A stretch of DNA of 64,000 bases from contig NZ_CP134696.1 of assembly GCF_031851795.1 (NCBI RefSeq), positions 248,001 through 312,000 on the forward strand, written 5' to 3'. A program made the translations under genes and the position numbers. Positions 26,608 through 55,683 of the stretch are shown here, in pieces. Source of the stretch: Pontibacter sp. G13. Its GTDB lineage: Bacteria; Bacteroidota; Bacteroidia; J057. The first letter of the stretch is position 1. Every line of letters starts with the position of its first letter. The notes beneath the pieces were generated by a model. The model was not told the DNA's origin and ran no database searches. It worked only from the letters and a program-made list of their open reading frames with translations.

Positions 26608-26777
26608 TTTGGGCGATCCCCCACGTGCTGGAGGATATGGACGCGCTTGACCCAAGTGTCGCGGGGTCAGGCTGTTCGGGAGTCCGTTGACACTTCCGTC
26701 CTCCGCTGAAGGCTCCGGACCTCGCTACGCTCGTCCCTACCATCCTTATCGCCGCTGCAGGCCAACCGCACAGTTTT
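26608..26777. repeat. Dispersed intergenic element A, copy 3
   Basis: It starts GGGCGATCCCCCACG and ends GGCCAACCGCACAG, closest to copy 2. A linker (TTTGCTTGATCTTTTGTTC, then GGATACT) follows and is also present after copy 4 at 39297. The lower stem has one mismatch here (CCCCACG against CGCGGGG). Confidence 0.8.
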
Positions 26778-26838
26778 GCTTGATCTTTTGTTCGGATACT
26801 GCGCCTGAAAATATTCATTTGGGCGCGCCCACATGCCC

Positions 26839-28165
26839 CCTCGGCGATCCCCCGAGATGCCACGCGAGCAGGAGCCGGATTACCCACGGGCCGGTGCAAT
26901 TGCAGAAATCCGGCTCAGGCAGATTCCACCTCTGCCACCGACGCGCAGGCCGTGGCTGATGGCAGGCTGGAATGACGAGATGGGGAATTAGATAGATGTT
27001 AGACAAAGCTTTTGTGTCATTCTGGAAAATCTGAAGCGGGGGCCTGTGCGCTGGAGATTTATTCAGAATCTTGGCCGGGATGAATGCCCAGCAACACAAG
27101 AGATCCTGAATCGTCCGCCATCGCTATGGGCCTCGGCGATGGACCTTGAGGATGACCTGATGACGGTGGATGGAATCCTGCCCTACAGGCGCCCAATCCA
27201 CGACTCCCGTTGCAGGGACGCGAGATCCCGTATAAATTTCCCGGCACACAGTCTCCAGCCCTCCGAAATTTTACGGGATGACACTTTTTCTGCTTGGCAT
27301 GATAATCCGCGCTCAGGCAGATTCCACCTCTGCCACCGACGCGCAGGCAGTGGCTGATGGCAGGCTGGAATGACGAGATGGGGAATTAGATAGATGTTAG
27401 ACAAAGCTTTTGTGTCATTCTGGAAAATCTGAAGCGGGGGCCTGTGCGCTGGAGATTTATTCAGAATCTTGGGCGGGATGAATGCCCAGCTCCACAAGAG
27501 ATCCTGAATCGTCCGCCATCGCTATGGGCTTCGGCGATGGACGTTCAGGATGACATGATGGCGGTGGATGGAATCCTGCCCTACAGGCGTCCAATCCAAG
27601 ACTCCCGTTGCAGGGACGCGAGATCCCGTATAAATTTCCCGGCACACAGCCTCCAGCCCTCCGAAATTTTACGGGATGACACTTTTTCTGCTTGGCATGA
27701 TAATCCGCGCTCAGGCAGATTCCACCTCTGCCACCGACGCGCAGGCAGTGGCTGGTGGCAGGCTGGAATGACGAGATGGGGAATTCGATAGATGTTAGAC
27801 TAAGCTTTTGTGTCATTCTGGAAAATCTGAAGCGGGGGTCTGTGCGCTGGGGATTTATTCAGAATCTTGGCCGGGATGAATGCCCAGTATCACAAGAGAT
27901 CATGAATCGCCCGCCATCGCTATGGGCCTCGGCGATGGACCTTGAGGATGACATGATGGCGGTGGATGGAATCCTGCCCTACAGGCGCCCAATCCACGAC
28001 TCCCGTTGCGGGGACGCGAGATCCCGTATAAATTTCCCGGCACACAGCCTCCAGCCCTCCGAAATTTTACGGGATGACACTTTTTCTGCTTGGCATGATA
28101 TTCCGCGCTCAGGCAGATTCCACCTCTGCCGCCGATGCGCAGGCCGTCGCTGATGGCAGGCTGGA
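26839..28165. repeat. 398-bp tandem repeat array, three full units plus a partial fourth
   Basis: A head segment (26839-26912) precedes units at 26913, 27311 and 27709 and a partial unit at 28107; the period is 398 bases each time and the units are nearly identical. Each unit begins GCTCAGGCAGATTCCACC. In unit 1 three hairpins are visible, at 27016-27071, 27101-27156 and 27223-27282, all with the layout GTCAT-stem-loop-stem-ATCT (the second and third in reverse orientation). Long open frames in these units contain no protein features and are by-products of the repeat. A further copy with the same head is at 40147-40484. Confidence 0.9.
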
Positions 28166-28561
28166 CTGCACAGCAAACCTGAATAGCAAATCCGCATTCC
28201 ATATAGGCATTGCGGAAAGGAAGACATGAAAAAAACGTGCGGATGGCCCGTGTGGCGTGAGCGGTCTGGAAGGTTCAGTCGGTGGAAGAGAGGAGAATTC
28301 CCAGGCTTGAAAGATGGTCCGGAGCGTTCGTTTTGCCCATGTTCGCATGAATGCCACCGACCGAGCGAACGGCGAGCCTGGAAGATCGCGACCCGGCGGC
28401 CAATTTTGCCGAGCGCAGAACTTCCAGCCAAGACGCCGGGGCACGCCCAAATCATCTCCCAACATGTCCAGCCTACAAAAAAACCACCGGAGCACAACTC
28501 CCCCATCCGGAAATTGGCCCCTAGTGGTCCTAGACTTGCTCATAAATCGTGTGGCACGTGA
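28166..28561. other. Gene-free stretch with a large imperfect hairpin
   Basis: No credible gene. CCAGGCT near 28299 and AGCCTGG near 28375 are complementary, with CGTTCG and CGAACG pairing inside, so an 80-base hairpin is possible. Codon-like open frames here lack any family resemblance. It separates the repeat array from the Asp-box gene. Confidence 0.35.
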
Positions 28562-31183
28562 TCAGCGATCTATCCGTGCCTTGAACCAACCACTGCCCCA
28601 AGCCGCACACCAAATGATGGCTGGGTCTTTGGGGTCTAGCTTGATGTCGGTCATCTTGTCGGGTTGTCCGAGTCCGCGGTTGATCTTGGCCCATGATTTT
28701 CCGCCATCTCGCGTCAAATAAATCCCTGGATTCTTGAAAGAATCCCCGCGGCCCTTTCGGTGCAAAGGCACATTGACTAGCATCAGATTGGGGTCCACCG
28801 TGGAAACCTCCGTTTGCCAGACATAAGGCGCCTCAAAAAATCGCTTCCATTTCTTGCCTTGATTCGAGCTTTTCCAAACCCCTCCACCGGAATACGCGCC
28901 GTCCCGATAGCCACAGGAGAGGTACATATCGCCAGATTCGGGATGAATAAACAGATTGTTCACCCCTTGAATATTTGCAGGAATAGGCACTTCCTCCCAC
29001 GTCTGGGCGCGATCATGAGACACATACAGTCCGCTGGGATCTTTGTCCCCGCGCTTGTTGATGCAGGCGTAGATCGTGGTGGGATCTTTCGGGTCCATGA
29101 CCATGCGGCGGACACTTGCATGCTTCGGCAGGCCTGCATTGCTCAAAGCCCAATTGTACCCCCCATCCGTCGAGCGGTACACCCCATAATCCCCTTGTTC
29201 GATCTCATTGGGTCGAGTCCCGCCGCCCACTTCCTGAACCGGTTTGCGGATGGAGCAGAAGTACATGTGATTGGGGTCTTCCGGGTCGATCAACAAGGAA
29301 GCTTGATAGGGCACATTTTTGGCCTTTTTCTTTTTCACATGGATGGTGGAGATATTCTCCCAAGTTTTGCCGCCATCGGTGGTGCGGCGCAATTTCCCAA
29401 GATGCTCCTGCCGCCAAGCCAAAATATAGATGGTATTGGGGTCCTTGGGGTGTACAGCCACCGTGGAAATAGAATGCATGTCGTGATGCCCTTTGACATC
29501 ATGGACTTGTCCCTCGATCTGCTGGACGGCCACCGCATCCCGATCTGGCCAATCGCCGATGTCCGTCGTCTGCCATAACCCATGCTCACCAGAACACAGC
29601 AGGTAGCGATCTTCGATGCCGGTATGCATGAGCATTTGTCGACCGGGCAGATTGCTTCCTCCACGACCGATCCATTTTCCACTCCCCGGTGCTGTCTCAA
29701 AATCATCCACCTGCTGCCAAGAATCGCCCCCATCGTTGGACCGGAGCGTCTGCTGATTGATGCCGATAAACACCTCTCCCACGGAGTTGATGGCCAGCAT
29801 GCGATTGGCGGATCGGGTTTCAGATTGGACATCCAAAGACGATTGCAGATGCGCAAATGAGACATTGGTCCCCAACTCAAAGCCCTTTCCGAGCCAGTAT
29901 TCACGGTCCATCCCTTCCTTCCAGTACTCGCCGATTCGGGCGCAGATCTTCCAAGTCTTGCCGCCATCCTCTGTTTTCCAGGCATCTCCGGGGCCAAAAC
30001 TCTTGTCGTGTCGCTGATTGGCTACGAGGTAGAGTTCATCCTTGTCCTGAGGATTGACGACGATGCGGTTGAAAATCGAATAGGTATGCCGGGGATATTC
30101 GGGATACGCCTTTTTGGAATTCACCCCAAACCAATGATTCAACACTCGGTGATAGTTGCTTCGATGATGGTAGTAGGTGATCTGGCTAAAATCTACGCCC
30201 AGATCTCCTGTGATGCTCGTCCATTGTCTACCGCCATCTGTACTCTTGAATACTCCGCCACGGGTTTCGATCGATTGGCCAGCAGGCAGATACATGGTTT
30301 GCTCCACAAGGTACAGGGTGTGTACGCCTGTTTCCGGATCGAAATGGCCCGTCAAGTCCCGAGGCAGATTATTGGGCAAGCCTTGATGCGCAGGCTTCCA
30401 AGTCTCTCCGGTATCTTCGCTGCGAAAGACCCCGAAATTGGTGGCGATCACCATTTCGTTGGGACGGGTGGGGTGGATCAGGATACGTGCCACATCCAAG
30501 CTATCAGGCGCAATATCCTGAGCGACCTTCTTCCAAGTTTCTCCCCCATCGGAAGTCTTGAGGATATAGCCATAGGCAGCCCGTTCATGGATCAACCCTC
30601 GTGGAGCCTTGAGGGAGCGGTGATTGTGCTTGACATTCCAGAAATCCCCTGCACCGATGAACCAGATATCGTCATCCTCCGGATGAATGGCCATCTTGGT
30701 GTGTGCATTGGTATGCTTGCTTTTGGCGGCATGGGGAATCACATGTTTCAGCGTCCAAGTTCTCCCCCGGTCTTGGGTCGTGAATACTTTTCCCCGTCGC
30801 TCAAGTGCCACGGCAAAATCCGGATTCTGGGAGGAAAAGGCGATATCCAGCACCCGCTCCAGATCCTGTCCATCCCCATCGCTGTCCTTGATGGTGTGCC
30901 ACGACTTCCCATTGTCCCAAGTACCATAGGCCACGTGCATATCCGGCCCCATAAACATGACATTGGTGTCTGTGGGATGGCACCAAAACTCCTCACAATA
31001 CCCCGACATTCCGGGTCCGAAATTCTTCCAAAGGACAGATTGATCCGAGGTAATCCGCTCGGATTTCATGCGCTTGAAGAACTCCTTGCTCTTCTCGGGT
31101 CCTTGATCGAGTACGGTTGGCTGGACGTGAAGGAGCAGCCCCCCCAGAAGAAACAGGGGAATGAGTTTGACGATCTTCTTCAT
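28562..31183 (-). CDS. Secreted multi-blade beta-propeller with Asp-box (BNR/VPS10-like) repeats
   Basis: The product of 873 residues starts at ATG 31183 with a signal peptide (MKKIVKLIPLFLLGGLLLH). At least ten Asp-boxes of the form S/TxDxGxTW are visible (TQDRGRTW, TSDGGETW, SEDTGETW, STDGGRQW, TEDGGKTW, SNDGGDSW, TTDGGKTW, STDGGYNW, SHDRAQTW, TRDGGKSW), which fit two seven-bladed propellers as in GH74 or sialidase-like proteins. Catalytic residues of GH74 or sialidase cannot be assigned. It is the last gene of the five-gene sulfatase operon (gap of 56 bases to the GH29), so a role in binding or cutting a sulfated polysaccharide is likely but unproven. Confidence 0.8.
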   Translation of the reverse strand: MKKIVKLIPLFLLGGLLLHVQPTVLDQGPEKSKEFFKRMKSERITSDQSVLWKNFGPGMSGYCEEFWCHPTDTNVMFMGPDMHVAYGTWDNGKSWHTIKDSDGDGQDLERVLDIAFSSQNPDFAVALERRGKVFTTQDRGRTWTLKHVIPHAAKSKHTNAHTKMAIHPEDDDIWFIGAGDFWNVKHNHRSLKAPRGLIHERAAYGYILKTSDGGETWKKVAQDIAPDSLDVARILIHPTRPNEMVIATNFGVFRSEDTGETWKPAHQGLPNNLPRDLTGHFDPETGVHTLYLVEQTMYLPAGQSIETRGGVFKSTDGGRQWTSITGDLGVDFSQITYYHHRSNYHRVLNHWFGVNSKKAYPEYPRHTYSIFNRIVVNPQDKDELYLVANQRHDKSFGPGDAWKTEDGGKTWKICARIGEYWKEGMDREYWLGKGFELGTNVSFAHLQSSLDVQSETRSANRMLAINSVGEVFIGINQQTLRSNDGGDSWQQVDDFETAPGSGKWIGRGGSNLPGRQMLMHTGIEDRYLLCSGEHGLWQTTDIGDWPDRDAVAVQQIEGQVHDVKGHHDMHSISTVAVHPKDPNTIYILAWRQEHLGKLRRTTDGGKTWENISTIHVKKKKAKNVPYQASLLIDPEDPNHMYFCSIRKPVQEVGGGTRPNEIEQGDYGVYRSTDGGYNWALSNAGLPKHASVRRMVMDPKDPTTIYACINKRGDKDPSGLYVSHDRAQTWEEVPIPANIQGVNNLFIHPESGDMYLSCGYRDGAYSGGGVWKSSNQGKKWKRFFEAPYVWQTEVSTVDPNLMLVNVPLHRKGRGDSFKNPGIYLTRDGGKSWAKINRGLGQPDKMTDIKLDPKDPAIIWCAAWGSGWFKARIDR

Positions 31184-31239
31184 CAGATGTTTGGTTAGGC
31201 GAATTCGCTAGCTTTAAGCAGGTGGTAGATTTCGGGTAC

Positions 31240-32748
31240 CTATCTCGCGCGTTCGATTTTCAGCACATAGGCAAAATCACAGGGTCTTTTTTCAGGGAGG
31301 CGCACAGAGAGAAAATTGGGACCTTGCTCCCACTCCAATTCTTCCGGAACCCCAAGCATGTCAATCCGCTGGATGTCGCCGGGATACATTTTTCCCTTGT
31401 ATCCCAACGCATGAATCAACGCCTCTTCTCCCGGCCAATCGAGCAGGATCGCGTAGAGATAGCCGTTGTTTTCGGTAAATCGAATATCCTGAGGACCGTA
31501 TTCGGGAATTTCTTTGCCTTGCTTCTTGCCTTGTCCATGGTGCCCGGGATTTTTGACGTAGGCAGGTCCCTCTCCGTAGGTGATCCAGGGTGTACTGCCG
31601 TAAATCGCCTCTCCATTGAGTTGGAGCCAATCCCCCATTTTGTATAGCTCGTGCTGGATGTTCTCTGCGAATGAACCATCCGCCTTGGGAGGAACATTGA
31701 GGAGCATCCGGCCATTTTTCGAAGTGATATCCACCAACATGTCGATGAGGATTCCGGCATCTTTGGGCTTATTCTCAGGATTGTAGAACCACACGGCGGG
31801 CCATTGGATGTGCTGTTGCATATTGATGTCAGCCATCCAAGGATCGTATTGCAGGCCGTCCAGATTGCCATTCTCGATATCGCGCATCCCGATTCCCGGT
31901 GGAATATCGAAGCTCTTGTAAACGAAGTCGACCTCCTTGCCCCATTCCTCCGCAGCATTATAATAGCTACTGATGTATGCCTGTTGGATGTTTTCGGGAA
32001 TCCCATTGACCCCGAAATCTATTGCACCTTGCATCATCTTCCCCTCGACCAGCATCTTGCGCTTTTCCAACTGGAGCGTTCCTCCAAATCCAACATCCAC
32101 CCACACCATATCGGGCTGATGGAGTTCGTAGCCTTCCTTCATGCGTTCCAGCCAGCCTGCCATGTATTTCTGGTTGAATCGACCTTCTGGACCGTAGACC
32201 AGCGGATAAGTGCCCGTACGCTCGTAATTGCTATCAGGCGCGATGTACACACGGTTATGCTTGCTCATATTTCCCCAAAGGGTCACGCTGTGAAATGAGG
32301 CGATCAGCTTGAGATCAGTCTTTCGAATTTCCTTGGCCAATTCGCCATAGATGTCAATCCGAGGGCCCTTATCCACGGTGTTCCAATCGGTGATAGCACT
32401 ATTCCAATTGAGGCAACCATTCACATGCCAAGCAACTGGCCCTGCGAACTGCGCCCCTGATCGTTGGAACAAATCGACCCATTCCTTGGCATCGAATTGG
32501 TCGCCCTTCCACTGCAAGATCGCATCCCGATCGAGCATATCTGGTTTGCCGCGATCGAGCTTCACGGATTGGGCACCCCAATGGCAGTAAATCCCAAACT
32601 TGGCATCCTTGAGCCACTGCGGAGTTTCGTGCCGGGCCAGTGAAGACCAAGTAGGTTGATAGGGTTCCGATTGATCGGCGGGCTCATCGGCATCTTGCGC
32701 ACATCCCATGAGGAGGCCCAAAAGCATACAGAGAAAAATCCGGTTCAT
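31240..32748 (-). CDS. GH29-type alpha-L-fucosidase/galactosidase lipoprotein of the sulfatase operon
   Basis: The ATG at 32748 (MNRIFLCMLLGLLMGC) gives a lipoprotein signal; the frame is open 70 codons further but this is non-coding in character. GH29 motifs: WLKDAKFGIYCHWGAQSV, PVAWHVNGCLNWNSA, and QPDMVWVDVGFGG, with the Asp of WVD as expected nucleophile. MLLNVPPKADGSF closes the barrel and a beta domain ends the protein (502 residues). The usual His-His pair of the sugar pocket (HHDGF in its paralogue at 22437) reads HVNGC here, so the substrate may differ from plain fucose. Neighbours are a sulfatase upstream and the Asp-box propeller downstream. Confidence 0.85.
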   Translation of the reverse strand: MNRIFLCMLLGLLMGCAQDADEPADQSEPYQPTWSSLARHETPQWLKDAKFGIYCHWGAQSVKLDRGKPDMLDRDAILQWKGDQFDAKEWVDLFQRSGAQFAGPVAWHVNGCLNWNSAITDWNTVDKGPRIDIYGELAKEIRKTDLKLIASFHSVTLWGNMSKHNRVYIAPDSNYERTGTYPLVYGPEGRFNQKYMAGWLERMKEGYELHQPDMVWVDVGFGGTLQLEKRKMLVEGKMMQGAIDFGVNGIPENIQQAYISSYYNAAEEWGKEVDFVYKSFDIPPGIGMRDIENGNLDGLQYDPWMADINMQQHIQWPAVWFYNPENKPKDAGILIDMLVDITSKNGRMLLNVPPKADGSFAENIQHELYKMGDWLQLNGEAIYGSTPWITYGEGPAYVKNPGHHGQGKKQGKEIPEYGPQDIRFTENNGYLYAILLDWPGEEALIHALGYKGKMYPGDIQRIDMLGVPEELEWEQGPNFLSVRLPEKRPCDFAYVLKIERAR

Positions 32749-32843
32749 TTGAATGATTGGTTGAATTCCATCGAATAGGCAGTGGGAAAAGGAGTCAAAG
32801 GAAGCAGGGGCACAATCCGCCCCACTCCACTCGTATTCAGGGA

Positions 32844-34280
32844 TTAGCGCTCTTCTTGCCCCATGATTGCTTGCTGGTAAAACAAGGCTCGTTGGCGATG
32901 ATACTCCTTGTAGCCCATGAGGGTATTGGGGATATTTTGCTCGTCCCAATCTTCCCATTGGGCGCGCAACTTTTTGGCGCGCTTGGGATGATCTGCCATT
33001 CGGTCGTGAGCTTCAGACACGTCTTCCGGCAAAAAAAACAGTTGGGGTTCCTTGCTGTCCTTGTCCTTCAAGTGCTTGGTGCCATCAGAGGCGAGGATCG
33101 ACCATTGCTTGCCATTTCCGCCTCTCCAAAAAATCCCTTCATGTGGCGCTTGGGATTTCTTTCCCGTGACGAAGGGCACTAAATTGACGCCTTCCATCGC
33201 ATGTGCACTTGTGGGATCTCCGCCCGCCAATTCCACCGCCGTCCTTCCGATGTCCAATGAGTGTACCGGAAAGTCATAGACCATCGGCTTGAACTTGGCG
33301 GGCCAATGTGCAAGGAATGGAACATGGACGCCGCCATCGTAGAAATTGCCTTTTCCCCCACGGAATGGTTCATTGCTAGAGGCATTTCCGCCCTTCCCGG
33401 TTTTGGGATTGGGTTGAGGTCCGCCATTGTCGCTGAGGAAGAAGATCAGGGTATTGTCATAGATTCCCTGCTCTTTCAATGCTTGCACCACTTCGCCGAT
33501 TCCTCGATCCATCACATCAATCATCGCGGCGTATGTTCTCCGCTTTTTGTCCTCGATATGGGCGTATCGGGCAATGTCCTCCTTGGGTGCCTGCAATGGT
33601 TGGTGAGGGGCGTTGTAGGCGACATAGAGGAAAAAGGGATCATCCTTGTTGTCCTTCACAAATTGGGCGGCATCTTGACTGAGGGCAGTCGTCAAATATC
33701 CGTCGAAACCCGCTGGGCGGCCATTTCGCTCCAATCCCTGCTTGTAGGCTTCCCAAACCTCCTGTTTGAGGTCAATTTTGAAATAATCATGTCCACCCCC
33801 CAAAAAGCCATAGAAATAATCGAAGCCCCGATTCAGTGGATGAAACTCCGAAGCAGCGCCCAAATGCCATTTCCCTACCGCACCTGTGGTATAGCCAGCC
33901 GTTTGCAATCTGGCCGGAAAAAGCGTTTCATCCACGCTAATCCCCAGATGTGGATTGGCGGGATCGTACGCGGGATTGGTTTCAAAGCCGAATCTGTAGG
34001 GATATCTGCCCGACAACAAAGCCGCGCGGCTCGGACCGCAAAACGCATGGTTGACATAGCCTTGACGGAATACCACACCATTGGCGGCTAGCTGGTCCAA
34101 GTTCGGTGTTTGGATGTCTTGGGCTCCGGTGAAGCCCACATCTGCATATCCCATATCATCCGCCATGAAGATGATGATGTTGGGGCGTTCGTCCTTGGGT
34201 TCGGAATCGCTGGGACTTACAGCGGAAATGCCTATGCCAAGTGCGGCAAGGAGCATCAAGAGTCCGATGGAATACTTCAT
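32844..34280 (-). CDS. Secreted type I formylglycine sulfatase (S1 family), operon gene 3
   Basis: The ATG at 34280 ([18 protein letters not shown]) gives a signal peptide; ATG 34289 adds three residues. N-terminal metal-site strand [18 protein letters not shown] (Asp-Asp for calcium). The maturation motif [13 protein letters not shown] fits C-x-P-S-R, whose Cys would become formylglycine through an anaerobic or aerobic maturase not seen in this window. GKWHLG and [13 protein letters not shown] supply the further metal and substrate ligands. About 478 residues, normal for S1. It removes sulfate esters from an algal polysaccharide. The subfamily cannot be fixed by eye. It sits 41 bases after the GH28-like gene and 95 bases before the GH29. 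Confidence 0.9.
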
Positions 34281-34321
34281 CTGGGTCATAGATCTGAGGA
34301 GTTGGAAAGGAAGCTGGAGCA

Positions 34322-35902
34322 TTATTTGATCTTGGCGGCTTTGATGGGCGCATTCAAGGAGTAGATCACCTCCTGATTGGCACCCTCGGAATCTTGGAGG
34401 ACAATCTTCTTGGAACGTTCTCCCTGAATTTCCACGAGCGCCTGTACGGTTCCTTGGGCTTGCAGGCCGGAGAACTTCGAATTGACCACATTTTTCAGGA
34501 CTACCCCAACTTGTGCAGCCATGGTGATATCGAACGTCACATTCGCCCATTCACTATTCTCCACATCATCCATCACGATGGCCTGACGATCGTCATGATT
34601 TCGGAGGGAGAAGGCCACATCCTTCATTTTCAGCCCCTTCACGTGGCGGACATACATGCCATAAGCCGGCAGCACCCCAAAGAACAATTGCTCGGGATAT
34701 CGGGCCTCATCTTCCTTGATCTCACGGTCCCGGACATTCAGATCCCCAAATCCTGTGTAGGAGAAATGGACGTTTTCCATGGTGATATCCTCGATGTAAT
34801 GCCCCGGCAATCCCGTGAACATGATGCATTCCGTGGGCGGATCAATCCGGCCAGTCAATCGGCCTTCGATGTTGCGAAAGGTGATATTGCGAATGGCCCC
34901 AACAGGCCTTCCTTCCGGTTGTGCATCCTCGCGGTACACCTGCCGGATGGATTCGGCATAATCTCTCCCCCGATTCCCCAGGCGAATGAAGATTGGACCT
35001 CCGCAGTTAAACATCTTGATATTAGAGAATTCTACATTTTCGATGATCGCCCCATCCACTGCCAGCAACTTGATCGCGCCATGTCGGCTGTCGAAAAATT
35101 GGCAGTTCTCGACCTTGATGTTCCTGAATCCTGTCTTGGAAGCGGTCCCAAATTTCACACTTGCCCAATAGCTACTCACCGTACAATTGGAGATGTGGAA
35201 ATTCTCGGTCATTCGGTCCACACTACTTTTGAGGCAGATCGCATCGTCCTCCACCTGTAGGTTGCAATCTGAAATCCGGACATTGGAACAACCATCGAAA
35301 TTCATCCCGTCATTGTTCTTGTTTTCCTTGTTGTACAGCGCAGTATGGTGAATGTACACGCTGTCACACTCCCGGAAATACATACACCAAGACCCGGAGT
35401 TCTTGATGATCATATTGTCAAATTCCACCTGGGTGCATTCCTCGATCCGGAAAAGCTTGGGGCGTTCCTTGCTGTGCTTGAAGAAGTAGCCTCGGCCGTT
35501 GAGATGCGTTCTCGGATGACCGATGAACTTGATGTTCTTCTGTCCCTTGGCGTAGAACAGGCATTTGGAGAAATGGGGTTCTTCTGTCGCAACGGGCACC
35601 TCCGCATAGTGATCCAGCGTGGTTGCGCCATACAAGTTGGACCAAGGTTCAAACTGGATGGTGACATTACTTTTGAGGAAAAGCGTTCCCGTGGTGAAAG
35701 TCCCTTTGGGAATGATCACCCTTCCCCCGCCATTCGCAGCACAGGCATCAATCGCCGCCTGAATCGCTTCGGTACTAGGTTCCGAGTGAGATTTCTTGGC
35801 TCCATAGTCCAAGATATTGAAGGTCTTTTCCTGAGCCTGAGCTGAGCCAATCGTCATGATCGTCCAGAACAGTGCGAGTAGATAGATTGAGGTCTTTTTC
35901 AT
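34322..35902 (-). CDS. GH28-like right-handed beta-helix protein lacking the usual catalytic histidine
   Basis: The product of 526 residues starts at ATG 35902 with a signal peptide ending at AQAQE. The N-terminal [20 protein letters not shown] and [11 protein letters not shown] are hallmark phrases of polygalacturonase-type beta-helices. Two of the GH28 motifs are present: NNDGMNFDG (NxD) and EDDAICLKS (DD). At the place of the third motif (GHG) the sequence reads [12 protein letters not shown] with no His, and the fourth RIK region reads RNIKVEN. Classical GH28 enzymes hydrolyse polygalacturonan, so this one may act differently or only bind. It lies between two sulfatase genes in one operon. 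Confidence 0.8.
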
Positions 35903-35926
35903 GACTTGAAATATGCGTTATTGGGG

Positions 35927-37498
35927 TTATCGAGCGTCCTCTTCAGATTCGAAGTATGTCCAGAAGTCTTCTCGGGTCCGCATCCCATCGGCGACATCTC
36001 CCAGTGCCTCCGCTTCCTTCCGCATCTCGGCCCGCATCTCGGCGATCTTTTCGGCATACTGAGGAAAGGCCGCCAGATCCAACGTTTCCCATGGATCTTC
36101 GGAGACATTGAACAATTGGGTGACCCGGGAGCCCGCCACGAATTCCCCTCGTTTCTTGTGAAAATCTGGTGCACGAACGTATTCGATCAGCTTGAAATCG
36201 CCCTTCCGGAAGGCTCGCTGATGCTGGCGATATGCATGGTAGGTGTAGGTGCGAATCTGTTCCGATTCTCCTCGGATCACGGGCCCTAGGCTCAGCCCCG
36301 ACACGGATTCTGGAAGCTCCACTCCCGCCAATTCACACACCGTCGGATAAATGTCATGGATATAACTCATCGCCTCAATGCGTTGGCCACGGTAGGATTC
36401 CCTCAAGCCTCCACCCGAGATGATGAAGGGGACATGGACCCCATCTTCATCATAGATGTTTTGCTTGCCCAATAGCCCATGATTTCCCACGCCCAAGCCA
36501 CTATCTCCCGCCATGACGATGAGGGTGTTTTCGTACTGGCCACTTGCCTTCAATGCTGCGATGACTCGGCCAATCTGCGCATCGAGATGCGTGATGATCG
36601 CATAGTAATCCGACAAATGCTGACGGGCGATTTCAGGGGTACGTGGCCAAGGTGCCAATTCTTCATCCCGAAGGACGATATGCCCATTGTCGAATGGATG
36701 TTGCGACAGGTAGGAAGGCGGCAATTCGATTTCGGCCTCCGGATAGAGATCCTTGTACGCTTGGGGAGCTTGCCGAGGATCATGTGGCGTGGGGAAAGCC
36801 AGATACATGAAAAATGGCTGCTTCTTCGGGCGACCCTTTTCGATAAAATCAATCGCATCATCCGCCAACACCTCCGAAACATGGGGGCCTGTATGCTCGG
36901 TACCCGTTGGGCCGCGTTTGTCTGTCTTGGCCAAAGGTCGACTCACGACATTGCCCGACTCATCATATTCCAGCAAATAGCTATTCTCGCGTTTCAGCAC
37001 ACCATCTGGATTCCAAGGCGTAAATGGCATCCGGAATTGATCGGTGAGATAGGCAGGTTTGCCGCAGACTTTGCCGCCGGATTGATAGGCACGGCTAAGA
37101 GATTTGGGATCTTGGTGCCATTTCCCTACGTGATGCGCATGGTATCCTGCACGGGAAAATGCCTCGCCCATCATGGTATGCTCTAGCGGGATGGTGTGTC
37201 CAGCTCCCGCCAATTCGAAGAGATTTCGGCCTGTAAGCAACATCGCACGGCTCGGAATGCACGTGGCCCCCAAAAAAGAGCCCATCAGGTAAGTCTGGGT
37301 AAAGGCTATTCCCTCATGAGCCAATTGATCCAAGTGGGGCGTTTGGACAGCTTGGCCGCCCAAGGCATGAACCCCGCTAAACCGATGGTCATCCGTGTAG
37401 ATCACCAAGACATTGGGATGGTCGCGATGTTGGGCAGGGAGCCGCCAGAAGACGGACACGACAAAGAGTGCGAGGAGTAGAATTCGTTTCATTGACAT
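35927..37498 (-). CDS. Secreted type I formylglycine sulfatase (S1 family), first gene of the operon
   Basis: The start is ATG 37498 (MSMKRILLLALFVVSVFW); ATG 37492 is possible. The signal peptide is followed by HPNVLVIYTDDHRFSGV (Asp-Asp metal site). The formylglycine motif is ATCIPSRAMLLTGR (C-x-P-S-R). Other metal and substrate strands are HVGKWHQDPKS, and VMAGDSGLGVGNHGLLGK, a common ending of iduronate-2-sulfatase-like and choline-sulfatase-like S1 enzymes. It has 523 residues. It differs clearly from the second sulfatase (32844), so the two probably desulfate different positions. It is the promoter-proximal gene, with the GH28-like gene 24 bases downstream. The regulator at 37689 is divergent. 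Confidence 0.9.
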   Translation of the reverse strand: MSMKRILLLALFVVSVFWRLPAQHRDHPNVLVIYTDDHRFSGVHALGGQAVQTPHLDQLAHEGIAFTQTYLMGSFLGATCIPSRAMLLTGRNLFELAGAGHTIPLEHTMMGEAFSRAGYHAHHVGKWHQDPKSLSRAYQSGGKVCGKPAYLTDQFRMPFTPWNPDGVLKRENSYLLEYDESGNVVSRPLAKTDKRGPTGTEHTGPHVSEVLADDAIDFIEKGRPKKQPFFMYLAFPTPHDPRQAPQAYKDLYPEAEIELPPSYLSQHPFDNGHIVLRDEELAPWPRTPEIARQHLSDYYAIITHLDAQIGRVIAALKASGQYENTLIVMAGDSGLGVGNHGLLGKQNIYDEDGVHVPFIISGGGLRESYRGQRIEAMSYIHDIYPTVCELAGVELPESVSGLSLGPVIRGESEQIRTYTYHAYRQHQRAFRKGDFKLIEYVRAPDFHKKRGEFVAGSRVTQLFNVSEDPWETLDLAAFPQYAEKIAEMRAEMRKEAEALGDVADGMRTREDFWTYFESEEDAR

Positions 37499-37602
37499 TT
37501 GCTTTCAGACCGGATTGAGCGGCAGGGATCTTGCGCCCAGAAGGGCTTGCAGGATTCCTTCAAAGGTCTGGATAAGCTGATGCACCGTCCTTGTTTTTGG
37601 CA

Positions 37603-37648
37603 ACATATAAACTATACAATCCCCCAATTACCCCACATATAAACTATA
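37603..37648. promoter_or_regulatory. 14-bp direct repeat in the divergent sulfatase/regulator promoter region
   Basis: ACATATAAACTATA occurs at 37603-37616 and again at 37635-37648. The start-to-start distance of 32 bases is about three helical turns, so both would face the same side of the DNA. It lies between the sulfatase operon (start 37498, minus) and the TPR-HTH regulator (start 37689, plus). A binding site of that regulator is a reasonable guess. Confidence 0.5.
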
Positions 37649-37688
37649 TTCACCTGCGAGAAAGGAGGACGAAACGCCTAACAAGCAC

Positions 37689-39263
37689 ATGAATAAAAGG
37701 GGCCTATTACATATCGTTGTTTTTCTATCACTCTTTCACATTTGTAGCCATACAAGTCTGGCACAAGGAAATGGAGGATTCGACACCACCCTGTACCACA
37801 AGAAGCAATTCGTCAACTATGGCTATTCGCTCCACCGCGAAGACGTCCGGAAAGGGAAGGAATACTTTGAAAACGGCGCTCAGTTTTTCAGGAAAAAGCA
37901 GGATACCGCCTCCTACCTGTTCTGCATGATGGCGCTGTCCGACTTCGAAAAACTTGTGGGAAATTTCAATGGCGCCTTTGATATCCTTTCCGACATCGAG
38001 TATGCCGCCTATCACTCCCCGGATCACCTCGTCCAGATGCGGATTCTGGGAAAATACGCCGAGCTGTATGGAATCTATGGTCAGGATAGTCTCGCGCTGC
38101 GCTACCTGAATCGAAGCCTAGACATCGCCAAAACTGCCGGAAAGCCCCATCAAAAGGTGCAGCCCTATTTCGGCTTCGCGCAGCAATACGTGAACATGCA
38201 GGAATATCGCCAAGCCCTACACTATCTGGATTCCTGCTATCTGTCCGCACCCGCCAAAAAGCGCATGCCTTACGTCGATGCGCTCTATGGACACATCTAC
38301 ACCGAGCGAAAGGAATACCGAAAAGCGGGGATATATTTCCGGGACATATTGAACCACTTTGAGCGCCAAAAACCCGCATTCATCGTTGTGGTCTACGACT
38401 ATTTGGCGGATTACCACCTGGCCATTGACCAGCCGGATAGCGCCATGCATTTTTGGCAACAAGGGCTCCGGGCGATCAACACCATGAACGTCAACATGGA
38501 GAAAAAGCCCATGATCCTCCAAAAGCTGTCCGAGCTACATGCTTCCAGAAAGCAATTCAAAAGGGCTTGGGACTACATGGCCGCCTCCAAGGAAATTTCA
38601 GACAGCCTTTTTCATACCCAGAGTCAGCAAAACAAGCAACTCTTTCAGCTCAAGGGCGCATTCAGCGCGACGCTCTCTCGCATGGATCAGCAAATCGAGG
38701 CACAGCAAACGCTCATTCAGGAACAGGGAGAAAAAAGCTTCCGCCTGCAGATCGGGATGGGTATCCTCCTGTGCATCGCGATTGCGGCAGTCGTCACTTT
38801 CAGGATCAGGACCAAAATGCGCCAGATGGCCCTGGAACAGGAGAAGACCGACACCATCCTACAAATCAAGAACAAGGAACTCATCGTCAGCACGCTACAA
38901 CTCATCGAAAAGGAGCAGTCTATCGACGAGCTTTTGGGAATCATCGAAGAACAAGCACCCGAGCGATTCAGCAGCTTGAAGAACAAACTACAGCAGCACG
39001 ACCAGAAGATCTGGGAGGATTTCCACAGACGATTTACCCAGACCAACAGCAGATTCTACGAACAACTGCTCAAGCTCCACCCGAGTCTCACCCAAAACGA
39101 CCTCAAGCATTGCGCCCTCATCAAGCTGAAATTCGACAGCAAGGAGATGGCCCAGATCCTCGGCATCTCCGTGAATAGCGTGCATGTCTCCCGATCCAGA
39201 ATCCGCAAGAAACTGGGCCTTAATCGCGCTGAGAGTCTGGGAGGCTATTTGGAGGGGATTTAG
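37689..39263 (+). CDS. TPR-transmembrane-HTH transcriptional regulator
   Basis: The 524-residue product starts at ATG 37689 with an export signal ending at SLAQ. About six TPR-like helical pairs occupy residues 40-330 (QKVQPYFGFAQQYVNMQEY, KEYRKAGIYFRDILNHF). One membrane helix lies near 354-374 (IGMGILLCIAIAAVVTF), followed by a charged coiled coil (MALEQEKTDTILQIKNKEL). The C terminus is a LuxR-like HTH (LTQNDLKHCALIKLKFDSKE, then MAQILGISVNSVHVSRSR). Such Bacteroidota proteins are thought to sense a signal outside the inner membrane and bind DNA inside. It is divergent from the sulfatase operon by 190 bases and is its likely regulator. Confidence 0.85.
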   Translation: MNKRGLLHIVVFLSLFHICSHTSLAQGNGGFDTTLYHKKQFVNYGYSLHREDVRKGKEYFENGAQFFRKKQDTASYLFCMMALSDFEKLVGNFNGAFDILSDIEYAAYHSPDHLVQMRILGKYAELYGIYGQDSLALRYLNRSLDIAKTAGKPHQKVQPYFGFAQQYVNMQEYRQALHYLDSCYLSAPAKKRMPYVDALYGHIYTERKEYRKAGIYFRDILNHFERQKPAFIVVVYDYLADYHLAIDQPDSAMHFWQQGLRAINTMNVNMEKKPMILQKLSELHASRKQFKRAWDYMAASKEISDSLFHTQSQQNKQLFQLKGAFSATLSRMDQQIEAQQTLIQEQGEKSFRLQIGMGILLCIAIAAVVTFRIRTKMRQMALEQEKTDTILQIKNKELIVSTLQLIEKEQSIDELLGIIEEQAPERFSSLKNKLQQHDQKIWEDFHRRFTQTNSRFYEQLLKLHPSLTQNDLKHCALIKLKFDSKEMAQILGISVNSVHVSRSRIRKKLGLNRAESLGGYLEGI

Positions 39264-39296
39264 GCAAGGAATATGAGATCCGGTCTGATCATGATC

Positions 39297-39470
39297 TTTG
39301 GGGCGATCCCCGCGTGCTGGCATTCGATGCTCGCTTGGCCCATGAGACGCGTGGACGGGCTGATCCAGGGGTCCGCTGGCGCTCCCGTCCTCCGCTGAGG
39401 GCTCCGGACCTCGCTGACGCTCGCCCTTTCTATCCCTATCGCCGCGGCAGGCCATCCGCACAGTTTTTTG
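39297..39470. repeat. Dispersed intergenic element A, copy 4 (most diverged)
   Basis: It starts GGGCGATCCCCGCG and ends GGCCATCCGCACAG. The 3' half keeps CCTCCGCTGAGGGCTC and CGGACCTCGC, while the middle differs from copies 1-3 (GACGGGCTGATCCAGGGG). It lies straight after the regulator gene and is followed by the same linker as copy 3. Confidence 0.75.
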
Positions 39471-39500
39471 CTTGATCTTTTGTTCGGATACTACGTTCGA

Positions 39501-39943
39501 AAATGCTCATTTGGGCCCAGTCATCTAAACCCAGGACGTCATCCCCGACGGCAATGGCCAAGGCCTCAGCGATGGCACCGATCGGGGATCTCCTGAGCGA
39601 AAAACCGAATCTGAAAATGTTCATTTGGCCCCAGTCATCTAAACCCAGCACGTCATCCCCGACGGCAATGGCCAAGGCCTCATCGATGGCACTGATCGGG
39701 GATCTCCTGAGCGAAAAACCGAATCTGAAAATGTTCATTTGGCCACAGTCATCTAAACCCAGGACGTCATCCCCGACGGCAATGGCCAAGGCCTCAGCGA
39801 TGGCACCGATCGGGGATCTCCTGAGCGAAAAACCGAATCTGAAAATGTTCATTTGGCCACAGTCATCTAAACCCAGCACCTCATCCCCGACGGCAATGGC
39901 CAAGGCCTCAGCGATGGCGCCGATCGGGGATCTCCTGAGCGCG
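39501..39943. repeat. 114-bp tandem repeat array, four units (last one incomplete)
   Basis: Units begin at 39501, 39615, 39729 and 39843, exactly 114 bases apart and nearly identical. Each holds a hairpin: GTCATCCCCGA, a loop with ATGGCCAAGGCCTCAGCG, then TCGGGGATCT (39538-39592 in unit 1). Because 114 is a multiple of three, open frames of repeating 38-residue blocks appear on both strands. These lack any start or export context and I read the array as non-coding. Confidence 0.85.
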
Positions 39944-39970
39944 AAGCATCATACCAAGCGAAAAAGATGC

Positions 39971-40031
39971 GTCATCCCGCAAAATTTCGAAGCGATGGCA
40001 CCTGTGGGCCGGGGAAATTTATGCGGGATCT
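39971..40031. repeat. Single inverted copy of the GTCAT-ATCT hairpin module
   Basis: GTCATCCCGCAAAATTTC pairs with GAAATTTATGCGGGAT, followed by CT. It matches, in opposite orientation, the third hairpin of the 398-bp unit (27223-27282), whose arms are CCCGTA/TACGGG, where this copy has CCCGCA/TGCGGG. The similarity extends outward through the CCAAGC-GAAAAA flank. Confidence 0.75.
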
Positions 40032-40083
40032 CACGCCTCGTGCATGCCAAGGCTAGTTTTTTGCCAAGCACAATCATGAATGC

Positions 40084-40128
40084 CTTTTTCAGTAGAGGAG
40101 CCCCTTGTGGGCTCCTCTACTGAAAAAG
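40084..40128. repeat. Perfect 20-bp palindrome with CTTGT loop (left copy)
   Basis: Arms 40084-40103 and 40109-40128 are perfectly complementary, from CTTTTTCAGTAG at the base to GAGCCC at the loop CTTGT. A related palindrome with the same outer bases and the same loop is at 40509-40554. The T-run is inside the stem, so it is not a standard terminator, though it may act as one in both directions. Confidence 0.8.
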
Positions 40129-40146
40129 AAGCCCACCCACAATCCC

Positions 40147-40484
40147 CCTCGGCGATCCCCCTAGATGCCATGCGAGCAGGAGTCGGATTACCCACGGGCC
40201 GGTGCAATTGCCGAAATCCGGCTCAGCAGATTCCACCTCTGCCGCCGACGCGCGGGCCGTGGCTGATGGCAGGCTGGAATGACGAGATGGGGAATTACAT
40301 AGATACTAGACGACACTTTTGTGTCATTCTGGAAAATCTGAAGCGGGGGCCTGTGTGCTGGGGATTTATTCAGAATCTTGGGCGGGATGAATGCCCAGCA
40401 CCACAAGAGATCCTGAATCGTCCGCCATCGCAATGGGCCTCGGCGATGGACGTTCAGGATGACATGATGGCGGTGGATGGAATG
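40147..40484. repeat. Isolated copy of the 398-bp repeat unit with its head segment
   Basis: The head (40147-40220) matches 26839-26912, and 40221-40484 matches the first two-thirds of the 398-bp unit, including its first two hairpins. It ends within GTGGATGGAA, where the third hairpin would begin downstream. CTTGT-loop palindromes lie on both sides (40084-40128 and 40509-40554). Confidence 0.85.
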
Positions 40485-40508: not shown

Positions 40509-40554
40509 CCTTTTTCGTAGGGGCACGGTCTTGTACCTGCCCCTACGAAAAAGG
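40509..40554. repeat. 17-bp-plus palindrome with CTTGT loop (right copy)
   Basis: CCTTTTTCGTAGGGGCA at 40509-40525 pairs with TGCCCCTACGAAAAAGG at 40538-40554; GGT and ACC pair inside, leaving the loop CTTGT. It lies 29 bases beyond the stop codon of the minus-strand propeller gene and could limit read-through into the repeats. Confidence 0.8.
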
Positions 40555-52653: not shown

Positions 52654-55600
52654 ATGCAATCAATCACTCGCCTACTACTAGGAGGCCTGTTACTACTTCC
52701 TTGCTGGGTATCTGCCCAAATCACGGTAGATGTAAACCTAGACACTCGCCATACCGTCGGAGGTGTGGACTCGTTTGATCGTTCCGTCTTCATCCAATTG
52801 CACGCCGACCCTACGGAGCAAGAATGGGGAGGCTGGAATTTCCCTGCAGGCGACAATCTGCGGGATACATTCTTGAATGGACTGGATGTCTATATGGGCC
52901 GGAATACCGGACTCATCTCTTGGCAACTCAATCAGATGAACGAGGACCCCAATCGCCCCGGATATGCCGATCCCGCGCACATCGCCCAGCGAGGTGCCAC
53001 ACACAAAAACAATTACGCTGCACAGACTTCCATTCACCCGTATCAAGCTAGGCACAATCTGGTCCTAGCCGCCCAACAAAATCGGTTCTTCCCCGATGGC
53101 ACCTTGACCGGACAAGGTTGGGCATTTGCCAATGGCCATGCTACCGGTGAATACATGGGTAGATTCATTCAGGAATTTCATGGAGGAATCGGACAACCCA
53201 AACCCAAATATATCGAGGTCATGAATGAGCCCCTCTGGGATCTCGTGACTTTGAGCGGGGACCACGAGCCTTTGGAGATCTTCGAATTTCACAACGATGT
53301 CGCCGAGGAAATCCGCAAATACGACTCTACCGCAGTCATTGGCGGGTATACCACTGCATTCCCCAATCTAGAAGAAGGCAATTTCTCCCGTTGGCACAAT
53401 CGCTGGAAATTGTTCATGGATGTATCGGGTGCCAATATGGATTTCTGGTCCATTCACCTGTATGATTTCCCTGTATTTGGCGGAAAGGCGATCTACCGAA
53501 AAGGAAGCAATATGGAGGCGACCTTGGACATGATGGAGCATTATAGTATGCTTTCCTTCCAAGAGGCCAAGCCATTCATTGTGTCGGAATACGGTGCCCA
53601 GCTTCACGACCTCAGCAAGCAACCGTGGACGCCTTATCGGGACTGGGTGTTCATGAAATCTGCGAATTCCCAGCTGCTCTCCTTCATGGACCGTCCTGAC
53701 CGGATGCTTAGCGTGATTCCATTTATCCTGCCCAAAGGAGAATGGGGACGCCACGCCAATGGACAACCCTACGAATACCGGATCATGCGTCAGGCCTTCG
53801 AAGGCCCCGGAGAATCCGGCAACTATTGGGTCTACACCGACATGGTAAAGTTCTACCAGCTGTGGTCAGATGTCAAAGGCTTGCGGATTGACTCCAGAAG
53901 TACCGATGCAGATATTCAAACCGACGCATTTGTCAATGGAGACAAAATGTACCTGATCATCAACAACCTGTACTTTGACTCCACCACCGTGGATTTGAAC
54001 CTTCAGGGACTTGACCAAAACATGGTTCAGAATATTCGGGTCAAGCATCTGCACCTGAGCGGAAATGCCCCGGTGATCACCGAAACCAATCACGCTAGCT
54101 TGGACTCCGTGATGCTCCAGTCTGAATCCACCATGATCTTGGAATACACCTTCCAACAGCCTGTAAGTGTGCCGGAGACCTCCAGTGAGGTCAAATATTA
54201 TGCGACAGATTACCTCAAGCCGATTGTCGCAGGTAGCACCATCACGTTCCAGATCAATGATGTCGTACTTGACCAACAAGGTGAAGCGGTATTGCGATTG
54301 GGCATGGGCCGCGATCATGGCACTTCCCTCAAGCCGACCATTCGCGTCAACGGAAAATTGATCCACGTCCCAGACAATTACATGGGATACAATCAGTTGA
54401 GTCGTTTGACTTGGTTTGGGGTGAAGGACATTCCGGTACCTTATGCCCTGCTTCGCGAGGACAATACCATCACCATTCAATTCCCAGACAATGGCGGGCA
54501 TGTCAGTAGCGTAACCATGCAGGTGTACAACTTCACAGAATCTCCGGATCGCACGGATCGTGTAGCAGTCACAGGGGTCATGATGCTTCCGGACACCAAA
54601 CTCATGGAGCCGACCACTACCTACCCACTTCTGGCAGAAGTCCTTCCAACGGCCGCAACCGATCATCGTCTGACCTGGGAATCCACCGATACCAGTGTCG
54701 TGAAGGTAGATGAATTTGGCATGCTGACAGCTGATGCTATTGGTACTGCTTGGGTAATTGCGACAACCGTAGAAGGTGGATTTTCCGACTCTACATGGGT
54801 AGAAGTCATGAATTCCGTACCTGCAGTACAGATATCTAGTTTTGCAGTGATCCCTGACAGCTTCCTCCTCAATGCGGGTCAATATTTCCAGCTCAACGTG
54901 GACATTTCTCCAATCGACGCAAGCAATCAGGATGTGACTTGGTACTCTACCGACAGCACCATTGCCACGGTAGATTCCAACGGGATGGTCTATGGCAAGA
55001 AGTCAGGAATGGCCATGCTCGTGGGAACTACTGTAGATGGCGGCCTGATGGATACCTGTCATTTGGAAGTATATGCGCAGTACTCCAATACATTGGGGTG
55101 TCTTTTGCTCCCATTGAATGTAGTCAGCGATACTACCTACCAACTCAAAGTCGATTACACTGCAGGTGAAGAATATGACCTTGCCATCGAATTGGCAGAC
55201 GCCAACAACAATTGGGTTGGTGAAGGTCGTGTGACGGTACAGCCCGGTATTGGCACTGCCGAAATCGAGCTCAATTGTGTCAGCACCGTGAACTGGACTG
55301 ATCCGGTATTCCCGACTCCCGGTCCTGACTATACCTGGAAAGCCTGGATTCGCGACGTAGGCGGAGATTGGAGCACCAATAAAGGAGGGTGCCAACGGAG
55401 CAACGTCACCATTTCAGAAGCGACAAGTATTGAGCGGCCAGAATTGGCTGGCGTAAAGCTCTACCCCAACCCAGTCAACCACCTCATGAATATCGACATG
55501 ACCGAGCCTTTCCAGCAAGGTCTAGTCTCCTTCCTCGACCTGACGGGAGCCTTGGTCAAGACGCAAGTCCTCCAGCCCGGTTCCAATCAGGTTCAGGTGA

Positions 55601-55683
55601 TGGATCTGCCCGCGGGATACTACATCGTCCGGGTAGAAACTGAACAAGGTGCATTTACGCGGACCATCGCAGTTTCGCAGTAA
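52654..55683 (+). CDS. Secreted GH86 beta-agarase/porphyranase with two BIG2 domains and T9SS tail
   Basis: The product of 1009 residues starts at ATG 52654 with a signal peptide ending at WVSAQ. The GH86 barrel runs to about residue 600 with YIEVMNEPLWDL (acid/base Glu192) and FIVSEYGAQLHD (nucleophile Glu312). Two BIG2-like Ig domains follow (about 636-716 and 725-808; ending VDGGLMDTCHLEV), then a beta domain (815-930) that ends with KGGCQRSNVTIS. The T9SS sorting tail is KLYPNPVNHLMNID. It lacks the CBM6 modules of the paralogue at 12701. It is co-transcribed with GH50 (13-base gap) and is the long-chain cutter of the agar set. Confidence 0.9.
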   Translation: MQSITRLLLGGLLLLPCWVSAQITVDVNLDTRHTVGGVDSFDRSVFIQLHADPTEQEWGGWNFPAGDNLRDTFLNGLDVYMGRNTGLISWQLNQMNEDPNRPGYADPAHIAQRGATHKNNYAAQTSIHPYQARHNLVLAAQQNRFFPDGTLTGQGWAFANGHATGEYMGRFIQEFHGGIGQPKPKYIEVMNEPLWDLVTLSGDHEPLEIFEFHNDVAEEIRKYDSTAVIGGYTTAFPNLEEGNFSRWHNRWKLFMDVSGANMDFWSIHLYDFPVFGGKAIYRKGSNMEATLDMMEHYSMLSFQEAKPFIVSEYGAQLHDLSKQPWTPYRDWVFMKSANSQLLSFMDRPDRMLSVIPFILPKGEWGRHANGQPYEYRIMRQAFEGPGESGNYWVYTDMVKFYQLWSDVKGLRIDSRSTDADIQTDAFVNGDKMYLIINNLYFDSTTVDLNLQGLDQNMVQNIRVKHLHLSGNAPVITETNHASLDSVMLQSESTMILEYTFQQPVSVPETSSEVKYYATDYLKPIVAGSTITFQINDVVLDQQGEAVLRLGMGRDHGTSLKPTIRVNGKLIHVPDNYMGYNQLSRLTWFGVKDIPVPYALLREDNTITIQFPDNGGHVSSVTMQVYNFTESPDRTDRVAVTGVMMLPDTKLMEPTTTYPLLAEVLPTAATDHRLTWESTDTSVVKVDEFGMLTADAIGTAWVIATTVEGGFSDSTWVEVMNSVPAVQISSFAVIPDSFLLNAGQYFQLNVDISPIDASNQDVTWYSTDSTIATVDSNGMVYGKKSGMAMLVGTTVDGGLMDTCHLEVYAQYSNTLGCLLLPLNVVSDTTYQLKVDYTAGEEYDLAIELADANNNWVGEGRVTVQPGIGTAEIELNCVSTVNWTDPVFPTPGPDYTWKAWIRDVGGDWSTNKGGCQRSNVTISEATSIERPELAGVKLYPNPVNHLMNIDMTEPFQQGLVSFLDLTGALVKTQVLQPGSNQVQVMDLPAGYYIVRVETEQGAFTRTIAVSQ

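Follow-up and report, generated by a model that had tools for sequence, protein, structure and literature searches.

The repeats of this stretch of Pontibacter sp. G13 DNA are built around one family of bulged hairpins with covarying arms, which is spread over the genome and across the phylum, is organised in arrays and is used as an insertion site by IS110 transposons. In the window, that is, the whole 64,000-nucleotide stretch analysed (G000:C1:248001-312000, from a genome of 7.67 Mb), a covariance model identified 21 hairpins of this family (E ≤1.7e-7, with E-values of these models being rough). We consider it probable that they are non-autonomous REP-like repeats, a long-loop subtype akin to CGTC-class REPs, seeded by a trans-acting enzyme and serving as landing sites for IS110.

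Hairpins in the window

The hairpins lie in two groups (Table 1). All the arm pairs that the first-pass annotation had listed could be read directly from the sequence at their positions, and the three hairpins that it named in each 398-bp unit are present, but the covariance model finds four per unit, the additional class being TTCCA/TGGAA, always on the minus strand. The strand order within the unit is -,+,-,-, with both strands used. The complementarity described for CCTGAA/TTCAGG holds in the middle unit, which is fully paired, but not in the other two, where CCTCAA leaves one broken pair. Similarly, the GTCAT end, described as fixed, is found in three of the four 114-bp units, while one has CTCAT (39879). 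The GTCAT and ATCT ends are better read as a foot GTC and a tail CT; the stem then begins with the pairs A-T and T-A. The 398-bp module recurs in part at 40225-40464, 3' of the CCCGCA hairpin at 39970.

Table 1. Hairpins and arrays of the window, with covariance-model scores
Feature	Position	Strand	Score (bits)
Array 1: composite unit of 398 bp in 3.2 tandem copies, each unit with four hairpins	26907-28172		
Hairpin, outer arms ATTCCA/TGGAAT	26918-26977	-	66.0
Hairpin, outer arms ATTCTG/CAGAAT	27015-27074	+	69.3
Hairpin, CCTGAA class, degenerate (CCTCAA)	27098-27157	-	43.0
Hairpin, outer arms ATCCCGTA/TACGGGAT	27220-27283	-	53.3
Hairpin, TTCCA/TGGAA class	27316-27375	-	62.4
Hairpin, TTCTG/CAGAA class	27413-27472	+	69.3
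Hairpin, outer arms ATCCTGAA/TTCAGGAT, intact CCTGAA/TTCAGG copy	27496-27555	-	64.2
Hairpin, CCCGTA/TACGGG class	27618-27681	-	52.5
Hairpin, TTCCA/TGGAA class	27714-27773	-	61.4
Hairpin, TTCTG/CAGAA class	27811-27870	+	67.9
Hairpin, CCTGAA class, degenerate	27894-27953	-	36.7
Hairpin, CCCGTA/TACGGG class	28016-28079	-	52.5
Hairpin, TTCCA class, degenerate	28112-28172	-	39.4
Array 2a: unit of 114 bp in 3.9 tandem copies, each with one CCCCGA/TCGGGG hairpin	39499-39941	+	
Hairpin, CCCCGA/TCGGGG	39537-39594	+	58.8
Hairpin, CCCCGA/TCGGGG	39651-39708	+	48.7
Hairpin, CCCCGA/TCGGGG	39765-39822	+	58.8
Hairpin, CCCCGA/TCGGGG, foot CTCAT	39879-39936	+	53.9
Hairpin, CCCGCA class, outer arms ATCCCGCA/TGCGGGAT	39970-40034	+	57.4
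Hairpin, TTCCA/TGGAA class; belongs to the fourth, incomplete 398-bp module	40225-40284	-	64.3
Hairpin, TTCTG/CAGAA class	40322-40381	+	68.7
Hairpin, CCTGAA/TTCAGG class	40405-40464	-	65.2

Architecture and covariation

Each hairpin consists of the foot GTC, an 8-bp outer stem starting with the A-T and T-A pairs, an unpaired A, an inner stem, an apical loop and the tail CT. In an alignment of 32 sequences (A1), selected only for the feet and four outer-stem pairs, the unpaired A is found directly 5' of the 3' arm in 32/32, the fourth outer-stem pair is always C-G (near-fixed overall), the base before the foot is C or T, and the inner stem of about 5 bp carries a variable apical loop. Changes on both sides occur in 10 of the 13 pairs, 96.9% of the 416 cells are paired and 126 cells show a double change vs 37.7 in shuffled alignments, while with slid pairings as a control the paired fraction drops to 23-51%. 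RNAalifold arrived independently at the identical structure. Because A1 was chosen without regard to the inner stem, this stem is an independent test of covariation, and each of its five pairs covaries. The proposal that the different repeats form a single family with covarying arms is thus borne out, and it extends to genome-wide matches.

The outer stem could be assessed separately in 313 copies from this genome, which were located by their inner segment alone, without the outer stem. At least seven of the eight outer pairs are kept in 286 of them (91%), vs 141 expected with right arms dealt at random, so that arm differences breaking the pairing in most other copies, an outcome which the first-pass annotation had set against its own proposal, are not what is found. 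The bulge base is A in 306 of these copies and the tail CT in 292, followed by mixed sequence, while the foot is GTC in 260 and CTC in 36. Among the 214 distinct copies the first pair is A-T in 199 and the second T-A in 200; wobble pairs, read on the GTC strand, are G.T in 64 cases vs A.C in 24. Arm diversity is low in this genome, with eight perfectly paired outer stems accounting for most of the 313 copies, and therefore the covariation rests on few founder events and the sequence counts overstate the number of independent changes.

Pairing is also found when the sites are chosen by their ends. Feet of the GTCAT..ATCT type with at least four inner pairs number 207 in 414 kb of array regions, vs 0-4 for eleven permuted feet in which the first two stem pairs were kept, and 27 in 680 kb of unselected regions, vs 0-7 for the permuted feet. 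Among all 929 GTCAT sites followed downstream by ATCT, taken irrespective of pairing, 183 have 6/6 inner positions paired, vs 16 with right arms reshuffled.

Copies and arrays across the genome

A covariance-model search of this genome and its relatives, advised by the first-pass annotation, returned hundreds of copies here and matches across the phylum, and the family is therefore not limited to the copies noticed initially. In this genome the copies reside mostly in intergenic mosaic arrays. All 150 scored candidates matched the covariance model (R1), giving at least 150 genome-wide; R1 matches number 354 in the array regions (414 kb) and 33 in the unselected regions (680 kb), and the 398-bp unit alone has 179 matches in the genome.

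Arrays contain up to 25 hairpins, with classes combined in fixed modules (for example CCTGAA+, 29 bp, TCTGAA-). Neighbours are oriented tail-to-tail in 103 cases, head-to-tail in 90 and head-to-head in 64, and the spacings of 29, 18, 30 and 33-37 bp between hairpins recur. With palindromes in alternating orientation and spacer modules, placed between genes, the arrays have the organisation of BIME-like mosaics. The genes flanking 38 arrays are unidirectional in 18 cases, convergent in 10 and divergent in 10, i.e. about 2:1:1, without a preference for gene ends. No gene recurs beside the arrays apart from spurious ORFs built of the repeats and common paralogues, and no recombinase gene recurs there. 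A search for joined hairpin flanks in 1.09 Mb of this genome gave no clean empty site, only module joins with diverged junctions, which weakens the case for insertion of the hairpin as a unit.

Relatives in the family and the phylum

Model R1 has matches in at least 28 of 247 phylum genomes. A second model (R2), which describes the short core and to which this genome did not contribute, matches at least 66 of 247; both counts are lower bounds, as filters were strict and candidates per genome few. R2 cross-matches the long hairpins of the window, which, together with the short-core relatives across the phylum, upholds the suggestion that they form a local offshoot of a wider family of palindromes. 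The commonest core in the phylum, GTCATCCCGGA-CTTGA-TCCGGGATCT, has an 8-bp stem and a 5-nt loop ending in A, and corresponds to the published CGTC-class REP. Of 66 hairpins from the relatives, with loops of whatever length, 57 have an A before the 3' arm, and this A is kept in most of the forms in which 16-51 nt replace CTTGA. Genomes of the same family (G002, G004 and G010) have 54-55-nt hairpins with the same bulged A. The long inner part may have originated as an insertion into the loop.

Within one genus there is turnover: at four assessable syntenic gaps the hairpins of G120 are absent from G124, with hairpin boundaries unmappable because identity is only ~70%. In two further loci (L176 and L178) the loop contains a second, smaller hairpin, suggestive of a nested insertion into the CTTGA loop.

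IS110 elements at the hairpin foot

The sole PF02371 gene of the genome (L061 8645-9614, G000:C1:1706645-1707614, minus strand) interrupts a hairpin array at C1:1705-1708k. The element splits a hairpin at GTCA|TC, the joined flanks being GTCATCCCCGACGG..CCGATCGGGGATCT, and comprises the PF02371 transposase, the core dinucleotide TC at both junctions and an upstream ncRNA for which folding predicts target and donor loops. The hairpins are used as an IS110 insertion site in two more genomes. In G167, from another class (L241, L242, L243), two copies, both of 1,235 bp, split hairpins at GTCA|TC, and the third copy lies at GTCATCCCGAA, where there is no hairpin. In G004 (L256, L261, L263-L269) the site is GTCA|TCCCGG in 9/9 copies; the right flank of one copy makes up a perfect hairpin, and the right flanks of most of the rest are similar to the hairpin 3' half. 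Overall, 13/13 copies from three genomes and two classes are inserted at GTCA|TC|CC, 12/12 in G167 and G004, and three of these 12 split perfect hairpins.

DNA upstream of each recombinase is predicted to fold into two loops with the loop order of reported bridge RNAs, whose 5' guide base-pairs to the bottom strand on the left and whose 3' guide base-pairs to the top strand on the right (PMC11208160). The guides, as read from the sequence, would be CGUCAU and CGGGGAUG in this genome, CGUCAU and UCCGGGAUGA in G167, and UGUCAU and UCCGGGAUG in G004, so that in each of the three genomes the predicted guides follow their own target. The antisense match between guide and target is 8 nt for the IS110 of this genome (68/1000 shuffled targets are as good) and 10 nt in G167 (2/1000), and the same-sense match of guide and foot is not significant alone. 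Statistical support from a single predicted guide is modest, and the case for bridge-RNA targeting is made by the insertion sites and the parallel between genomes. A GTCA target was not seen in the IS110 groups of G281, G397, G202 and G112, and therefore it is not a property of the whole IS110 family.

The arrangement resembles that of IS621/IS110 on REPs (PMC11208160, PMC11187229, PMC1525189) in the recombinase, the two-loop upstream ncRNA and the core dinucleotide, and the guides, here predicted from sequence only, would likewise match a palindromic repeat. In contrast to IS621, the elements are directed to GTCA|TC, the CGTC-type foot of this phylum's hairpins. With these cases, REP targeting by bridge RNAs would reach a further class of REPs. 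Landing-site use explains the position of IS110, not the existence of the hairpins.

In a fourth IS110 group, that of G061 (L249-L252), CGTCA is found at the left junction in 4/4 copies, and G061 has CGTCATTGCGAG..GCAATCT repeats.

Kinship to known repeats

CGTC-class REPs (Di Nocera et al. 2013) are small, widespread in bacteria, reported also in Bacteroidetes, and include Neisseria dRS3 and Rickettsia RPE-6/RPE-4; they have a terminal CGTC (or TGTC, CCTC), an 8-9-bp stem with A-T and T-A as first and second pairs, a 4-5-nt loop and an unpaired tail CCA, and have neither a dedicated transposase nor an identified mover (PMC3733652). The window elements share with them the foot of CGTC/TGTC/CCTC type, the A-T and T-A first pairs, an 8-bp stem, high copy number, intergenic location and lack of an adjacent dedicated transposase. 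They differ in three respects: a bulged, re-paired inner part of 33-40 nt takes the place of the 4-5-nt loop, the tail reads CT and not CCA, and the copies form large tandem mosaic arrays. CTTGA loops of the short type were seen in relatives only. Since loop and tail depart from the definition, we regard the elements as a long-loop variant of a CGTC-class REP and not as a plain member.

A comparable organisation is known from the neisserial intergenic mosaic elements, in which CGTC-type inverted repeats alternate with other modules in arrays of 0.2-2.7 kb (PMC3898611). The combination of dRS3 with RS repeats is thus similar to what is observed here, but dRS3, ATTCCC(N8)GGGAAT, an integration target of Nf1 phage, has 20 bp (PMC3898611), whereas our hairpins have 54-61 nt and many arm classes. 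GTAG REPs, BIMEs and REPINs (PMC2817692, PMC3116915, PMC6006769) likewise have a fixed foot on a bulged hairpin and form dimers and alternating arrays. Unlike GTAG REPs with their RAYT, the foot here is GTC, and the RAYT genes that we examined have none of these hairpins alongside.

Rfam gave no match in the window at the gathering score, and literal GTCATTC-type strings returned only primer-like matches in unrelated papers. Integron attC sites were also considered for the bulged hairpins and set aside on inspection, as the GTC/CT ends are not attC boxes.

Possible origin of the hairpins

In the scenario that we favour, the functional form would be folded single-stranded DNA, with the fixed feet and the bulged A read by a trans-acting enzyme. 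This enzyme, no longer adjacent and possibly lost, would have seeded the copies, and the arrays may then have expanded through tandem duplication and recombination. Owing to the fixed foot, IS110 transposons guided by bridge RNA would find in the hairpins a dispensable place to land, in parallel to GTAG REPs for IS621 and to Neisseria dRS3 for Nf1 phage.

Could the enzyme be a Y1 (HUH) REP-associated tyrosine transposase, of this genome or of relatives, mobilising the hairpins in trans? The foot-stem-bulge-stem design does resemble REP and IS200/IS605 ends, a Y1 gene is present in 30/33 hairpin-rich genomes (at least 10 R2 matches) vs 146/214 others, and this genome contains two, at C1:1435526 and C1:5488564. 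However, the partnership which the first-pass annotation had proposed to look for is not supported. Both genes are flanked by other, private repeats: AGGGAATGAAATTCCCT..TGTCGGGCCTACAGCCC at C1:1435526, which is subclass-1.2-like by its motifs, and CGCGGACTTCCGG..AGTCCGCG on both sides of the RAYT-like gene at C1:5488564 (L033 1258-1803; SNHIHL and YIHQNP motifs). A Y1/RAYT partner was sought beside the hairpins in this genome, the family and the phylum sample and was not found; neither R1 nor R2 hairpins occur in any of 53 Y1 loci (162 kb; two own and 51 from the family and phylum), and the hairpin-rich genomes G136, G227 and G247 gave no match to a Y1 gene. Mobilisation by Y1 therefore appears unlikely to us. 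Another role altogether would be that of RNA, as terminators, mRNA stabilisers or processed small RNAs, which we find quite improbable: no T-run follows the hairpin, 10 of the 38 arrays lie between divergent genes, adjacent hairpins point both ways at fixed spacing and no Rfam family reaches the threshold, although covariation is a classic mark of structured RNA. The excess of G.T over A.C on the GTC strand also leans towards RNA, but within-class inheritance may explain it instead. It is very doubtful that the hairpins are passive tandem repeats that spread by homologous recombination only and whose pairing is inherited without being selected or needed. Long identical arrays, constant module order and the few arm classes would be expected in such a case, but other genera and classes share the architecture with different arms and loops, and degenerate copies hold at least 7/8 pairs far above dealt arms.

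Returning to non-autonomous REP-like repeats seeded in trans, a more far-reaching version, which we offer tentatively as possible but not likely, is that CGTC-type feet act as general addresses in the genome. Guides of IS110/Piv elements to GTCA|TC would then have evolved repeatedly (in this phylum, and in Neisseria by literature), hairpins and RNA-guided transposons would co-evolve, and movement of the hairpins would be due to an undescribed enzyme, which recognises single-stranded DNA by its GTC foot and bulged A. The phylum-wide covariance model, the invariant features, a heavily loaded genome and natural IS110 insertions make the mover of CGTC-class REPs testable.

Other repeats and genes

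The repeats around the Y1 gene at C1:1435526 (L032 1486-1938) covary themselves, with TGTC-GGGC-CTACA-GCCC here and TGTC-GCGC-CTACA-GCGC in arrays. Their TGTC foot and 5-nt C..A loop recall the CGTC core and are possibly a lead to the missing enzyme.

In the window, two perfect inverted repeats of 20 and 17 bp (40084-40128 and 40509-40554), starting with CTTTTTC and CCTTTTTC, lie beside the second array and are outside the hairpin family. A further recurrent palindromic module, CCGGATTACCCACGGGCC..GAAATCCGG, is interleaved with the hairpins at 26843-26918, 40151-40226 and in many array spacers. Direct repeats of 48-96 bp, 86-92% identical (26679-26918 and 39368-40226), flank a segment (28.5-39.3 kb) with Sortilin-Vps10, fucosidase and two sulfatase genes. 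At 52654-55683 the window encodes a porphyranase-like protein with a Por secretion tail, which fits a member of the Bacteroidota that degrades seaweed polysaccharides.
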